Position numbers and translations under genes: made by a program
Shown: one piece after another, positions 29,832 to 37,245 of the stretch
Numbering within the stretch: position 1 is the stretch's first letter
Layout: each line of letters begins with the position of its first letter
The notes under the pieces: generated by a model
What the model was told of the DNA's origin: nothing
The model's input: only the letters and a program-made list of their open reading frames with translations
Databases searched by the model: none
NCBI GenBank assembly: GCA_016189025.1
Contig: JACPGS010000030.1
Location: 1 to 37,245, forward strand
From: Candidatus Magasanikiibacteriota bacterium
GTDB lineage: Bacteria; Patescibacteriota; Patescibacteriia; Magasanikbacterales; GWA2-37-8
DNA length: 37,245 nucleotides
Reading direction: 5' to 3'

Positions 29832-30278
29832 TTAGTTTTTTCGCATCAGCCACCAGCGCTTTTTGCTCCCTAGCGCAAAGGGATCGCGGATCGCCCGCAC
29901 TGGTTTGAAGCCAAGTTTTTGGTGAGCGCGGAGCGACGGCCGATTGGTTTCTTTTACTAGAGCAATTATTGGTAATCCCCGGGAGGCGCGCTCTAGCGCC
30001 CGGTAGAGCCGCTCGCCGATCCCCCGGCGCCGGTATTTTGGCTCTACTACCCAATCCACAATTTTTACTTCATCATTCCTGGTTTTAAGCGCAACAATGG
30101 CGCCGATTAATCGTTGGGCATCGCGGGCTATCCAAGCGTAGCCGAAGCGGACGTAAAAGGCGATATCATAGGGGCTGGTGATGTTGGAGGCGCGCCACAC
30201 CCGCTGTTCCAGGCGCCGAATCGCCTGGCTCTCCTTAGGTTTTGCCCGGGCGAGGGTGATCATATACAGCTTAGTCAA
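29832..30278 (-). CDS. GNAT-family N-acetyltransferase
   Basis: VDWVVEPKYRRRGIGERLYRALE; LVKETNRPSLRAHQKLGFKPV. Confidence 0.9.
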   Translation of the reverse strand: MTKLYMITLARAKPKESQAIRRLEQRVWRASNITSPYDIAFYVRFGYAWIARDAQRLIGAIVALKTRNDEVKIVDWVVEPKYRRRGIGERLYRALERASRGLPIIALVKETNRPSLRAHQKLGFKPVRAIRDPFALGSKKRWWLMRKN

Positions 30279-31054
30279 CTAGACATTTTAACCCGAGCAA
30301 CTTCTTTAATTTTTGCTTGGATTTTTTCCTTGAATTTTTTACCGATATTATTAAACAAGGTTAGCAATTCCTCAAAGGTGTTTTCACCGCCAAGAAAATC
30401 CCAGTATTCTTTACCAACCAAAAATTCTTTTCCCTGATCTAAGACACCCTGCTCGGTAAAACGTTTGTAAGGTTGCGGGTGGTATGGGTTATATGGAAAA
30501 GCGAGGAAAACTTTGATCTGGCTTCGGCGGCGCGCTACCCATTCCAGAAGTTTCGTTTTTGATTTGGTAAAAACATCAATGTTTGGCTTTACGGTTTTGA
30601 TTTCAAAATAATGTTCTTGGCCGCTGCGTCGCATATAGAAATCGGCTATTCTCCCCTCTTTTTGTACTTTTCCATCACTTGCTGAAGCCATTAGCACGAG
30701 TCTAACTTCCTGTTCATGGTCAACTTTCTTTTCTCCGCTTCTCAATTTTCGTATAATGTTATCAATTACCGATCTTTGCTCACGCGATATAACACCCCCA
30801 ATATCATACTTCGTAAAACACTCATCGGCGGTTTCTTCGGCGAGGATTTTTGAAACATCCTCATAAATAGACATACCGAGTGTTGTGTTAATAGAATGTA
30901 AAAATGAATATGCTGCAACCTGTTCGCTATTTTGAATAAGCCGAATAAGAAAAGGCATCGAGGAAGTTTCGCGAGCGTAACGACGCAGTTTATCCTCGAT
31001 TTTCTTTTCAAGTAATGCCGCGATTTTCTCTTTTTGTGAATTTGATAAAGCCAT
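30275..31054 (-). CDS. TdeIII-like type II restriction endonuclease
   Basis: Resembles TdeIII-family N-terminus; IADFYMRRSGQEHYFEIKTVKPNIDVF (PD-(D/E)XK-type D...ExK); adjacent methyltransferase. Confidence 0.75.
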   Translation of the reverse strand: MALSNSQKEKIAALLEKKIEDKLRRYARETSSMPFLIRLIQNSEQVAAYSFLHSINTTLGMSIYEDVSKILAEETADECFTKYDIGGVISREQRSVIDNIIRKLRSGEKKVDHEQEVRLVLMASASDGKVQKEGRIADFYMRRSGQEHYFEIKTVKPNIDVFTKSKTKLLEWVARRRSQIKVFLAFPYNPYHPQPYKRFTEQGVLDQGKEFLVGKEYWDFLGGENTFEELLTLFNNIGKKFKEKIQAKIKEVARVKMSS

Positions 31055-31055
31055 A

Positions 31056-32648
31056 TTATTTTGTATTTTTGAAATGAAATATAATTTCCGAATAGGGGGA
31101 CTTATCCCGTTCGGTTCTGTTTAATACCGGCCGCTTGAACTGATTAACGATACTCATACCGGATCGTTCCGCAATAGCAGGATATAAATTATATTTATCA
31201 TTGGCAACAAGAAACACATCAAAATCATCGGCCAGATATTTTCTGCAATTGAGTAAAACTTTGGAAATCCCGTCAACGTAGGATTCGCGCGCTTCCGCGC
31301 CTTGGCCTTTGTAGAGTGGCCCTATTTCGAGTTCGTCTCTTCGTTCAAACCCAAAAAGATCGTAGGCGTAAGCGTGTTGCTCATGATAATCAATTTGGCC
31401 GACATAAGGCGGCGAAGTGAAGATGCCATTAATTTTTTGTTCTCTTAAAATCTCATGGAATTTTTTATTTCTTTTTTCTACTTCCTTAAAAATATCCACG
31501 GTTCTTGAGTCTGCCGGAAGAATGGCATAATGCGAGTTTGTCTTTAGTTTTGCAAAAGTTTTGAGCCGATATACTGTATCAATCGCGTAACGATCAAACC
31601 ATTCTTTTATTGAGAGAAGCGGCTTGCAAATTTTTTTGTGCTTCCAACAGTAGTAAGTCGTAATCTGCGGCTCTTTGAGAGTGGCTAAATCCGAATGTGT
31701 CGTGGCGCGGCACGACCTAATAGTGCGGCTTAAAATCACCGCCAGAATTTTTTTATTTTTAATGTCTTTGATTTTTTTAATCTGGGCAAAGGCGAAATCA
31801 ATTTCTTGACGAACATTTTTGATGTACCATTTATCCAGGAAAGTTTTACCGGAGGAATGATTTAGTTCGATACCATATTTTTTAACCAGAGCATTATAAA
31901 TCTTTAGAAACTCCCCTTCTTTTTCCAGGGCATATTTATTCTCGTTTATTTGTCCTCTTTGAATTTTATATTTGAACGCTGGACTGGGGAAGTATTTATA
32001 ATTAAAATCAGCTAGGCGGGCTAATAGCGCATTCTCAAAGGCCCCAATTTTGCTGTCTGTTTCGTAGTTTGCAATCGCCTGGTTTATTTTTTTTACCTCA
32101 TTTTCAAGTGAGGCAACATCGTGAGTTGATAATTTTGTTTCGGTAATCATGCAATTAAAATTGGATATATCAATGCCAATCGCATGCATACCTATTTCAT
32201 GTGCTTGTACTAAGGTGGTGCCCGAACCGGAAAATGGATCAAGAATTATATCTCCCGGTCGGAAATAAACATCCTTTTTAAAATCATCGGTATGGTCGTC
32301 AATAAAATATTGAACGAGCTGGGGGATAAACTTGCCTTTGTAGGGATGTAGCCGATGAACATGTTTAGTAGTATCTTTTTCGCGAAGATGGTCAAAAGAC
32401 AATGCCCAATTCAAATCGTCGCCCAGCCGTTTTTTCCAGCTTATTTCCCGTTGCCATCGATATGAATCATAGTAATTCTTTAGGTCGCTTAGATTAACAA
32501 ATACTGTGTTACCACCGTTATGCTTTTTCACCTTTCCGTACTGGACAAGGTACGAGATATTTGATTCGCTAACATCACGCTTGAGAAAGTCGCTTGCCCA
32601 TTGGCCAGCTTGTTTAATCGTGAGGAGTTGTTGATTCGTTTGTTGCAT
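31056..32648 (-). CDS. Site-specific DNA methyltransferase with TSPPY motif
   Basis: ILDPFSGSGTTLVQAHEIGMHAIGIDIS and GIFTSPPYVGQIDYHEQHAYAY; N-terminal HTH-like segment. Confidence 0.92.
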   Translation of the reverse strand: MQQTNQQLLTIKQAGQWASDFLKRDVSESNISYLVQYGKVKKHNGGNTVFVNLSDLKNYYDSYRWQREISWKKRLGDDLNWALSFDHLREKDTTKHVHRLHPYKGKFIPQLVQYFIDDHTDDFKKDVYFRPGDIILDPFSGSGTTLVQAHEIGMHAIGIDISNFNCMITETKLSTHDVASLENEVKKINQAIANYETDSKIGAFENALLARLADFNYKYFPSPAFKYKIQRGQINENKYALEKEGEFLKIYNALVKKYGIELNHSSGKTFLDKWYIKNVRQEIDFAFAQIKKIKDIKNKKILAVILSRTIRSCRATTHSDLATLKEPQITTYYCWKHKKICKPLLSIKEWFDRYAIDTVYRLKTFAKLKTNSHYAILPADSRTVDIFKEVEKRNKKFHEILREQKINGIFTSPPYVGQIDYHEQHAYAYDLFGFERRDELEIGPLYKGQGAEARESYVDGISKVLLNCRKYLADDFDVFLVANDKYNLYPAIAERSGMSIVNQFKRPVLNRTERDKSPYSEIIFHFKNTK

Positions 32649-32855: not shown

Positions 32856-35345
32856 TCAAGCGCGGGTTCTCCGCCAGCGCCAGGCCGCGAGCAAAATAAG
32901 GAGGCCGAATACGGTGATGAGAGCGTAAATGGCCGGTGATTTATTTGGTTTTTTCGGCGCCAGCGATAGATTGGCGGTAGACGGTTTTTCTTTGGTAATA
33001 ATTTTAATATCCTGGTCGCCCAGCGGCCAGAGCTCTTGCCCAGACGCGCCTTCTTCAAGAATGCCGGTGATTGCCGCTGACGATCCTTCCGGCAGGCGTT
33101 TTTGGTTTATCCGGGCGCCGCGTTTTAATTGCGCCAGTACTTCGCCGCTGCCGTCATCCAGGTAAAGGCGTCCGCTTTTGATTTCGGTAATTTCCCCGGT
33201 TACTTGTACTAGCGATCCTAAGGGAAAATCAGCCAAATCAGCGATGGTGCTGGTGGCTATTATCAATGCATCTGACACGGACCCCTTGATTTTTTGAATA
33301 TCCTCACGGCGGCGAACATTAATCCGTGGCCGGCCGTTGGCCGTGCTAATTACGCCTTGCACCTGCACCCGGTCGCCGAGAGAGAGCGCCGGGAATAATT
33401 TTTTCGCCGAAAATATTGCGATACCCCCGTCGGCGCCGGTTAAATAAAAGTATTGCGCGCCGAACGTGCCAGGCAGCGCTGCTACCGCGCCGGTGAGTAT
33501 CGCCTTAGTGCCTTTAGTTGCGCTACGAGCCGCCGGAATATTATTGACCAGGGGAGCCGAACCAGCATTGGATTTTTTGGGATTAACGATTGGGCGCGCT
33601 GGTGACTCCTCTTTTTTATCCGTCAGCGGTAATAGTTGGTTAAATTCGCCGGGCGTGGGGCGAGCGCTCCACTGCCAGCCATTTTCCTCTCGCGCGTAGC
33701 TTGCCCCGGCGGGAGCGCGACCATACCGTACGGTGTCCGCCGCTACTCCTTCGGCTGTTTCTAAGGTTACCGCCCCGCCTTCATTGGCGAGAACTAATTT
33801 AGTAATCCGGCGCGGGAAAAGCAGATAATCTTCCGCGGGCGCGACTGTCTCCGCCGGAAGTTCAAAACTGTCTTCGCCGCTATACAACTGCCACCCCGAC
33901 AGGTCAACCGCCGCAGCGCCGCGATTGTAAAGCTCAATAAATTCCTGACTTTCCGCGTCAGCCGGGTTAGGCAGTATTTCGTTGATGACCACCTCGGCCG
34001 GCGGGCGAGCATCAGGCGCCAGAATGTTGATAGTCAGTGGTTTAGCCGAGATGGTGCCGGCCGTGCTGGAGGCGATTATTGCCAGGCGTTGTTCACCGGG
34101 CAAACCAAATCGTCGCTCCACTTGATTGCCGGCAAGCGTCAAGCCGTCGGCAAAATGCCAGGTAAAGTTCAGGCGGCCGCCGCGCGGGTCCAGCGAGCCG
34201 GCAGCGTCCAAGCGCGCTGTTTTGTTTACCTCAATCGTCGGCGGGGCCGAGATGTTCCAGAGCACGTTTACAGTATCGGGCGGTACGATTAAATTAGTCG
34301 TGCCGCGGGTGGGCAGCGCGCTCCAGCGCCATTCTCCTGATTCCGCTAGATTATAGCTCGCACCGGTCGGAGCATCCTGATATGATATGGTCTCGCTGGT
34401 CAGGCCGTTCGGGGCAATGAGGCGTACTGTACTGCTGGTATCACTTAACGTCAGATCACTAAGAGAGCGATTGAGCAGCAAAAATTCGCCTGCTTCCAGG
34501 CGGCCGGCGAGCGCTAGTCTCTGGCGCCCCACGGCCACCTGCCAGCCATCAAGCTGGATTGATTCAGCGGAGCGGTTGAATAATTCAATAAATTCTTCCT
34601 CGCCGCGGCGCGGTTTGGGCAACAGTTCGGAGAGAGCGAGGGTGCTGGTGCTGGCATCTATTGCGGAAGTTGCCGAGGCAACGGGGGTAATGACGATAGC
34701 GGCCGAGTTTTCTTTAGCGGTAGTTTTGTTCAGAAGCGAAGCGGAGGAGGCAGGCGAAACTGCCGAGGCAGTGGTGAGCGCCCCCAGCGAATGTCCGCTG
34801 TCGCGTTCGCGCCAGTTGGCGGCAGTGTAATCAGCGCGCTCCGGCGCCAGGCGCTCGAGCGAGGCGCGGGTGGCAGGCAGGTAAGTAAACTGTTCCACAA
34901 AATTTCCGGCCGTGTCTTTCAGCCCGATTTCCTCGCCTTTTTCCGTCAAACTTCCCCACGACGAATCTAATACTAAACCGGTAAATGCCGGGTAGTCGGC
35001 CCAGAAAGCGGCGGCATTTTGAGCAATGACGGCAAATTGTTGGGGGCCGATAATTGCCGCCGCGGCGCAGGGATTAGCGCGGCAGGCCGGTTTAAGGTTA
35101 TGGCTGGTATTATTTTCCCAAAATTTCCAGCCGGCCAGGTCTATCGGTGCACTCCCGAAATTATATAACTCAATCCATTCCGCCCCGGCCGGCAGGTAAG
35201 CGGCAATTTCGGTGATGGCAATCGTACTCGGCACGGCGGCATAAACTCGTCTGCCCATTACCGCCATTCCGATTAGACCGATAGCCAGGAGCAGCGTCAT
35301 TATCCAGATTTGCCCAGGTAGTTTATCCATAATTTTAATGATCAT
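32856..35345 (-). CDS. Lamin-tail-domain surface protein with PKD-like region, OB-fold-like segment and C-terminal TM anchor
   Basis: Three repeats of the type (I/A)xEIxPxxxxxEWIELYNxxxxxIDLxGW; C-terminal AIYALITVFGLLILLAAWRWRRTRA. Confidence 0.88.
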   Translation of the reverse strand: MIIKIMDKLPGQIWIMTLLLAIGLIGMAVMGRRVYAAVPSTIAITEIAAYLPAGAEWIELYNFGSAPIDLAGWKFWENNTSHNLKPACRANPCAAAAIIGPQQFAVIAQNAAAFWADYPAFTGLVLDSSWGSLTEKGEEIGLKDTAGNFVEQFTYLPATRASLERLAPERADYTAANWRERDSGHSLGALTTASAVSPASSASLLNKTTAKENSAAIVITPVASATSAIDASTSTLALSELLPKPRRGEEEFIELFNRSAESIQLDGWQVAVGRQRLALAGRLEAGEFLLLNRSLSDLTLSDTSSTVRLIAPNGLTSETISYQDAPTGASYNLAESGEWRWSALPTRGTTNLIVPPDTVNVLWNISAPPTIEVNKTARLDAAGSLDPRGGRLNFTWHFADGLTLAGNQVERRFGLPGEQRLAIIASSTAGTISAKPLTINILAPDARPPAEVVINEILPNPADAESQEFIELYNRGAAAVDLSGWQLYSGEDSFELPAETVAPAEDYLLFPRRITKLVLANEGGAVTLETAEGVAADTVRYGRAPAGASYAREENGWQWSARPTPGEFNQLLPLTDKKEESPARPIVNPKKSNAGSAPLVNNIPAARSATKGTKAILTGAVAALPGTFGAQYFYLTGADGGIAIFSAKKLFPALSLGDRVQVQGVISTANGRPRINVRRREDIQKIKGSVSDALIIATSTIADLADFPLGSLVQVTGEITEIKSGRLYLDDGSGEVLAQLKRGARINQKRLPEGSSAAITGILEEGASGQELWPLGDQDIKIITKEKPSTANLSLAPKKPNKSPAIYALITVFGLLILLAAWRWRRTRA

Positions 35346-35404
35346 TTAATTTTATCCACAGTTCAATCTTGACATTTTTTTTAGGTATGATAATTTATTT
35401 ATAG

Positions 35405-35459
35405 AAAAAGGCTTTCGGCCCGTGGTTCATATACCACACTAAGCGGAAAGTCTTTTTTA
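35405..35459. terminator. Bulged bidirectional terminator-like hairpin
   Basis: AAAAAGGCTTTC...GTGGT...ACCAC...GAAAGTCTTTTTT. Confidence 0.7.
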
Positions 35460-35870
35460 TTTTTCCGGGAAAGTAGAGATTAAAAACTTTTGACCAGTAC
35501 GCTTATCTTCCTTAATCTGTACGTAAAATGCGTCTTTCTCCGCAGTACTTCCATAGAAACGATGGAGGATTTCTGATGGATTGTTGGGGTTTTCTTTTGA
35601 CTTCGGAGCAAAGCGTGATTCCTGAATCAGTTCAATAGCACAGCCAAAATACTTCAACCGTCTGAACCTGTCCTGCCATTTTTCTTTGTCAAACAAATGT
35701 TGCCAAAACAGATCAAGAAAGATTTTGTTTTTGTTAAAATAGGCTGACCGCACATAGGTGCGGCGTTTTGATTTACGCTTAATCATAGTGTATAGGTTGT
35801 AAGCCTTTTTCTTTACTTCATGGAAATCTGAACCGGAAAATTTGCGGGTTTTTGTTTGGTAGATTTGCAC
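35457..35870 (-). CDS. Hypothetical protein (basic, 137 aa); nuclease-like C-terminus possible
   Basis: HRFYGSTAEKDAFYVQIKEDKRTGQKFLISTFPEK; no firm family assignment. Confidence 0.5.
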   Translation of the reverse strand: MQIYQTKTRKFSGSDFHEVKKKAYNLYTMIKRKSKRRTYVRSAYFNKNKIFLDLFWQHLFDKEKWQDRFRRLKYFGCAIELIQESRFAPKSKENPNNPSEILHRFYGSTAEKDAFYVQIKEDKRTGQKFLISTFPEK

Positions 35871-36004
35871 AGTTAGTGTATTTTATAATTTAGCATTTCC
35901 CCTAGGATGCTCAGATAAAGTAAAACTAAAAAGTACACCTGTCAAGATGTACTATGGGGATAAAAAAACAGCTCTGTGAGCGGTAGTAGGGGAACCGGGG
36001 CGGT

Positions 36005-36027
36005 CGCTTGAGTAGCGACCGCCCCGA
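36005..36027 (-). terminator. Strong hairpin downstream of the Cys-rich gene
   Basis: Inverted repeat GGGGCGGTCGCT-tgagt-AGCGACCGCCCC. Confidence 0.6.
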
Positions 36028-36036
36028 TTCAGTGGT

Positions 36037-36309
36037 TCACCTCTTCTGCCCGCGCATCGCGAGCCGGAGCGCGCGATCGCGCCCGGCCCGCACGGCCTTG
36101 TGCTGCCGGTGCGCCGCGGCGCCCGGACTGGTGCCGTTGTGACCGGGGCGCGCGTGCTCCTCCAGCCACTTCGCGTCCTGGCAGGCCTTGGCCTGGCAGA
36201 AGCGGAAGCGCACCGGAATCACCTGGCTGCACTCCGGCCCGGCGCACTGGTGGCCGCACCGGCCGCAGTAGTCGGGCCCGTCCGCCGGCAGTGGCGCCGG
36301 GCAGCCCTG
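36037..36309 (-). other. In-frame continuation of the Cys-rich protein after the TAG
   Basis: QGCPAPLPADGPDYCGRCGHQCAGPECSQVIPVRFRFCQAKACQDAKW... stays open to TGA 36037; same frame as 36310-36804. Confidence 0.6.
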
Positions 36310-36804
36310 CTAGCGGCACGTCTTGGTGATCGGAGCGCCTGCCTTCTGGGCCGTCTCCTGGCAGGGCCGGCAGGTGGTGTAGAACGCCGGGATCACCCGG
36401 CCGCAGCCGGCCGTGCACGGGTGCACGCACTCGGCGCACAGCCCCCAGGTGCGGTTGTAGGCCGACACCTGGTTGGTGCACTGTGCACCGGTCTTCGGAT
36501 GCCGGCGGTTGCGGCAGGTCACCAGGGCCGGCTCGGGGCGAGGCGCCGGGGCTGGCGGCGCGCTGGCCGCTGCTGTCGGAACTGGCGCCAGGGGCGCTGC
36601 GGTAGCCGGGGAAGCTACCGGCGGGGTGGGGGTGGGGGAGAGGGGAGGGGACGGGGAGGCTTCGGTCGGCAGGAGATCCCCGATCGGGCTGAGCCGATCG
36701 AGGAGCCGGTCGAAGGCGTACCCGGCGAGCGAGGCGACGAAGCTCTTGGCGTTGGCCGCCGCCTCGGTGAGGCGGCGCTTGAAGTCCTCCTTGGGCTGGA
36801 ACAT
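36310..36804 (-). CDS. Cys-rich zinc-ribbon-like protein, upstream part, ending at TAG
   Basis: AAGGAG then ATG 36804; Pro/Ala linker then CRNRRHPKTGAQC...CAECVHPCTAGCGRVIPAFYTTCRPCQ. Confidence 0.65.
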   Translation of the reverse strand: MFQPKEDFKRRLTEAAANAKSFVASLAGYAFDRLLDRLSPIGDLLPTEASPSPPLSPTPTPPVASPATAAPLAPVPTAAASAPPAPAPRPEPALVTCRNRRHPKTGAQCTNQVSAYNRTWGLCAECVHPCTAGCGRVIPAFYTTCRPCQETAQKAGAPITKTCR

Positions 36805-36831
36805 GACGTTCTCCTTGGTTGTGCGGTTGGT

Positions 36832-36890
36832 GCCCGCACTTCCTTGGAAGAACATCGATGTTCTCATCCTCGATGTACTCCAGTGCGGGC
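36832..36890 (-). other. 5' leader hairpin of the Cys-rich gene
   Basis: GCCCGCACT/AGTGCGGGC closing stem with inner AACATCGATGTT. Confidence 0.7.
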
Positions 36891-36913
36891 TATAGTTTTA
36901 ACCCAATTGCCAA

Positions 36914-36937
36914 TCAAAAACCGCTTATTTTGTCCAT
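36914..36937 (-). CDS. Possible 7-aa upstream leader ORF MDKISGF
   Basis: AGGAG SD-like sequence before ATG; between the promoter and the main ORF. Confidence 0.25.
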   Translation of the reverse strand: MDKISGF

Positions 36938-37063
36938 GGCCTTCTCCTGGTTGTCAACGCGTCCCGAAGGACGCCGCACGCCGAAACTTGCCTTTTGGGC
37001 TTGCTTCGACAGCCAAAGTCGCTATGTTAAGCGAATTTAACCCTCAAAACAAGGAAAAATAAC

Positions 37064-37097: not shown

Positions 37098-37172
37098 AAT
37101 CAGGAGCAGTAGTCTAATCTAAATGCACCACCTAAATGGTAAAATATGCCTTTATCCATAAAGGTGGTGGGT

Positions 37173-37245
37173 ATGTCAAACGACTTAAAATTGTATGACA
37201 GAGAAAAGTTAGAATATCTGCTCAGAACCAAGCAAAGCTTGCGGG
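37173..37245 (+). mobile_element. 5' end of an IS30-like transposase, truncated by the window edge
   Basis: MSNDLKLYDREKLEYLLRTKQSLR resembles the N-terminal HTH of IS30 transposases; upstream CACCACCT...AGGTGGTG dyad. Confidence 0.55.

Follow-up and report, generated by a model that had tools for sequence, protein, structure and literature searches.

The window, the whole stretch of DNA analyzed here, is the entire 37,245-bp contig (C7) of a 1.22-Mb genome in 34 contigs that is 97.5% complete, from a patescibacterium with a Ca. Magasanikbacteria genome in its family. As originally predicted, it contains a Cys-rich frame with one in-frame TAG and about 90 codons running on to a TGA. The frame lies on the minus strand, starts at an ATG at 36804 about 5 nt downstream of an AAGGAG, meets its single internal stop at 36312–36310, and stays open for 90 codons from that TAG to a TGA at 36039–36037. 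The features of the locus are listed below in the direction of transcription, with the corresponding state of its sole real relative, a gene of Ca. Magasanikbacteria NC_groundwater_168 (G021; JACOYB010000004.1, locus L008, 4794–5474).

37105–37245, unstranded: multi-copy repeat whose end closes the contig, 100% identical to the ends of C30, C19 and C11
37062–37090, minus strand: promoter TTGACA-17-TATAGT with an extended −10 TG, assigned by pattern; same architecture upstream of the relative
36805–37058, minus strand: long structured 5′ leader (folding z −5.3, and −4.2 for the relative's leader; random stretches sometimes score low too)
36802–36816, minus strand: AAGGAG ribosome-binding site and ATG start, read from the sequence; the relative also has AAGGAG just 5′ of its ATG
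36037–36804, minus strand: whole interrupted Cys-rich ORF by translation, 255 codons before the TGA including the internal TAG
36526–36804, minus strand: variable N-terminal and Pro/Ala-rich linker region, 27% identical to the relative
36361–36516, minus strand: predicted zinc fingers 1 and 2, before the TAG, with the Cys pattern kept in the relative and probable zinc binding
36310–36312, minus strand: in-frame TAG at codon 165, placed by sequence and alignment within the first Cys pair of finger 3
36179–36309, minus strand: predicted zinc fingers 3 and 4, after the TAG, with 7 of 7 counted Cys common to the relative
36037–36178, minus strand: basic, weakly conserved C-terminal tail to the TGA, 28% identical to the relative
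35997–36025, minus strand: 12-bp G+C-rich hairpin right after the TGA, read from the sequence

The promoter, a consensus type, begins 286 nt 5′ of the ATG, and the contig-end repeat starts 15 bp upstream of its −35 element. The window shares its final 141 bp, letter for letter, with the end of C30; the matches to the ends of C19 and C11 span 140 and 110 bp. This repeat encodes MSNDLKLYDREKLEYLLRTKQSLR..., a product without a Pfam match that we take to be possibly the start of an IS30-like transposase. Within the leader, a short ORF, MDKISGF*, follows an AGGAG, and the relative's leader carries a short MRLSQ* ORF at a similar place; these could be leader peptides or chance occurrences. Rfam searches of the leader and the 3′ region gave no credible match. 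Elsewhere in the contig, which has 52% GC overall, the stretches 30500–32500 and 35345–36000 have 36–41% GC and include genes at 30275–32648, which suggests acquired DNA.

The gene product is predicted to be a zinc-finger protein in which paired Cys residues are conserved and would coordinate zinc. The original prediction described similar zinc-ribbon units on either side of the stop; the repeated Cys pattern holds, and the protein is better described as four predicted zinc fingers built from eight Cys pairs. Finger 1 comprises C97/C109/C123/C126 and finger 2 comprises C130/C134/C145/C148. The interrupted protein has no match in Pfam, NCBIfam, PHROG or PDB, and an AlphaFold model built with two sequences as input was poor, at a pLDDT of 41. 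Finger 3 starts as C-R-TAG-Q-G-C in the window gene versus C-K-G-C in the relative, and alignment places TAG CAG, the stop with its 3′ context, where the window gene exceeds the relative by two codons.

We searched 84,980 genome species for homologs, together with 25 genomes of the family, 86 of the order, 381 of the class and 380 of the phylum. The gene is present in 2 of the 25 family genomes and has no convincing match in the others searched; weak matches in G011, G013 and G326 were short or full of stops and were discarded. IMG/VR, phage records and plasmid records contained no phage or plasmid relative. In the one relative the ORF has no internal stop and aligns collinearly on either side of the TAG site, where a natural end shared by homologs would have spoken against an interrupted gene. 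Identity is 44% overall and 54% in the Cys region, reaching 57% in the zinc-finger region before the TAG and 62% after it (50 distal codons), and all counted Cys are common to both proteins (9 before, 7 after). The dN against the relative is 0.37 before and 0.38 after the TAG, a comparison of two sequences with weak power to detect relaxed constraint. The genes are alike in promoter architecture, structured leader, GC-rich ORF, Pro-containing linker and Cys pattern, and both are without a neighboring co-transcribed gene. They differ in that the relative lacks the internal stop, begins finger 3 with C-x2-C and ends its ORF at a TAG.

Base composition also sets the frame apart from its surroundings. 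The interrupted ORF has about 73–77% GC versus 36–42% in the flanks, and GC3 is 0.93–0.96 on either side of the TAG (85 of 90 codons after it). Openness by itself is weak coding evidence because the segment after the TAG is 77% GC and about 31% of its base shuffles also stay open for 90 codons. Homology and codon bias together show that the post-TAG half is genuine coding sequence. Since the neighboring non-coding DNA is AT-rich and GC3 has been kept, either the TAG is young or the distal half is still constrained.

To define how UAG is read in this genome, we examined release factors, tRNAs and terminators. The gene for RF1, prfA, is represented by a match above the curated cut-off, with a second, RF2-like match also present, and none of the 51 above-threshold tRNA genes has a CUA anticodon, the suppressor that the original prediction had proposed to look for. 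Two kinase genes of the window, for a riboflavin kinase and a PfkB-type kinase, stop at TAG near the points where their family profiles end, and each frame meets another stop within 5 codons after it, bearing out the earlier statement that global recoding is not at work. RNA structure 3′ of the internal TAG does not exceed chance (z −0.96; 33 of 200 shuffles fold as well). Suppression or reassignment is therefore not supported, since RF1 is present, CUA tRNAs were not found, TAG ends other genes and the downstream RNA is folded no more than shuffles are.

The promoter of the window gene recurs across related genomes. A search with its core found 14 sites in the window's genome versus 1 for a reversed control, and 27–39 sites in each of three sister genomes versus 3–5 for the control; roughly half of the sites inspected are followed by a solitary GC-rich ORF whose GC3 is 0.7 or higher. 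The resulting gene set, chosen by a promoter pattern drawn from the window gene and its relative (TTGACA-N9-TTTTATGNTA) with ORFs called by simple rules, shows leaders that are mostly long and structured, GC3 of 0.7–0.98 and AT-richer surroundings; low folding z-scores also occur at times in random stretches. Members in G000, G020, G021 and G022 are as follows.

L084, L085, L089/L144, L090, L095/L145, L107/L147 and L109
L111, L112, L117 and L124–L163

Set members are mostly unrelated to one another, with a few small families, and none of the nine scanned, whole or in part, contains a Pfam family. The 33 distinct members, including the window gene, stop at TAG in 24 cases, TGA in 6 and TAA in 3, against 42 TAG, 29 TGA and 88 TAA among 159 baseline ORFs (Fisher P about 1e-6). 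In the TAG members, GC drops to 0.23–0.48 within 90–270 nt after the TAG, with three exceptions: L117 at 0.52, L138 at 0.57 (a doubtful call) and the window gene at 0.75. Coding composition thus ends after TAG in nearly all members and clearly continues in the window gene alone, so that TAG is the usual gene end and the window gene is exceptional. On balance we lean toward the view that the window gene belongs to an undescribed Magasanikbacteria set of orphan genes with strong promoters, mostly structured leaders and a preference for TAG; searches of the literature brought up no account of stop-codon use in this clade or of orphan genes of this kind. One member, L117 (G000:C4:62300–65300), is a GC-rich orphan whose C-terminal segment occurs a second time, in diverged form, after the gene (DRWVTNWNWLDNDFNGNYRVLRRQ); its relatives in G020 and G021 are L149, L137 and L102.

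Among the options first listed, a recent nonsense mutation fits best, given a relative that is open across the site, the presence of RF1 and the lack of a CUA tRNA among those detected. We consider it probable that the window carries a recent truncating nonsense mutation, or a segregating allele, in a lineage-specific four-zinc-finger gene. Such a gene, probably strongly transcribed and encoding four fingers with a Pro-rich linker, would have acquired the in-frame nonsense codon recently in this genome. RF1 would then terminate at the TAG to yield mainly a 164-residue product with fingers 1 and 2 and a dangling TKTCR end, and fingers 3 and 4 would be lost or made only at a background readthrough level. 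Zinc binding, strong expression, the recency of the change and termination at the internal TAG are inferred, and with one relative the change is unpolarized. A young change, or the persistence of intact alleles in the population, would explain why the distal half shows no visible decay. This undecayed half and the intact hairpin after the TGA would also fit a TAG that is read through or that the living population lacks. Like bacterial pseudogenes with a single nonsense codon, the window gene has one in-frame stop, intact downstream homology and no frameshift. It differs from them in its intact promoter and downstream codon bias, and in being compared with one relative only. As promoter and codon bias are still intact, the truncation would have to be very young or polymorphic.

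The sequencing error named in the original prediction is possible but less likely. If the resident gene is intact and the TAG stems from faulty assembly or sequencing, or from a minor strain variant taken into the consensus, this would account for a single event without downstream decay, in a segment whose 73–80% GC makes short-read coverage difficult and which sits about 440 bp from where a repeat broke the contig. However, the exact 141-bp overlap with C30 looks like a trace of de Bruijn assembly at k=141, which points to short reads, where an isolated random miscall is unlikely to enter the consensus. A strain variant could do so, but would itself be a real nonsense allele. We regard an artefact or minor variant as unlikely.

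Leaky or programmed readthrough would produce two isoforms, a short one with two fingers and a long one with four. An in-frame stop followed by a conserved extension is known from readthrough genes such as Q-beta A1 and the TMV replicase with its UAG-CAA, and the CAR context after a stop matters for readthrough in eukaryotes; we know of no demonstration of this context effect in bacteria. The UAG CAG of the window gene resembles UAG CAA, its distal half is conserved and undecayed, and the stop follows two complete finger units so that either product would hold complete fingers. The window gene differs from those readthrough genes in its stop-free relative and in the lack of readthrough-type RNA structure at its TAG, and it sits in a genome with RF1 and no suppressor tRNA found. 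The stop splits a Cys pair in finger 3 instead of falling in a linker, and TAG is the favored terminator of the same gene set. The evidence thus offers no positive support for programmed readthrough, which we consider quite unlikely. Other routes past the stop were rejected: a restart at GTG 36222 would lose finger 3 and half of finger 4, and no start codon 3′ of the TAG restores finger 3; a frameshift is unnecessary as the reading frame is unchanged across the TAG; and a two-codon ribosomal hop over TAG CAG, which would restore C-x2-C, lacks matched take-off and landing codons.

We judge it very unlikely that selection maintains the truncated two-finger protein as the functional product, with the remainder now a 3′ UTR. 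Fingers 1 and 2 are complete and promoter, leader and ribosome-binding site are intact, as this reading would have it, but the distal half has 94% GC3 against about 36–42% GC in neighboring non-coding DNA, and the 3′ hairpin comes after the TGA and not after the TAG. Reassignment of UAG, or its suppression by a mobile element's tRNA as originally suggested, is extremely improbable: the open frame is the sole point in its favor and a 97.5% complete genome leaves room for a CUA tRNA on an element missing from the assembly, but the window gene shares only a TAG inside an ORF with the known phages that recode UAG and carry suppressor tRNAs, and differs from them in a genome with RF1, no CUA tRNA found and many genes ending at TAG, including those of the same set, and the gene had no relatives in the IMG/VR, phage and plasmid records searched.

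The case has value as a recoding candidate that fails the main tests, guarding against a further false report of stop reassignment in the candidate phyla radiation. The gene set, apparently strongly driven and compositionally alien, may matter more than the recoding candidate. Published work describes TAG as universally suboptimal in bacteria (PMC3549826) and as poorly responsive to GC pressure, the 'TAG paradox' (PMC9348620), and the TAG preference of this set is therefore worth a separate look. The set allows the question of TAG suboptimality to be tested within a genome, and it may draw attention to lineage-specific proteins in a phylum that is poorly understood.
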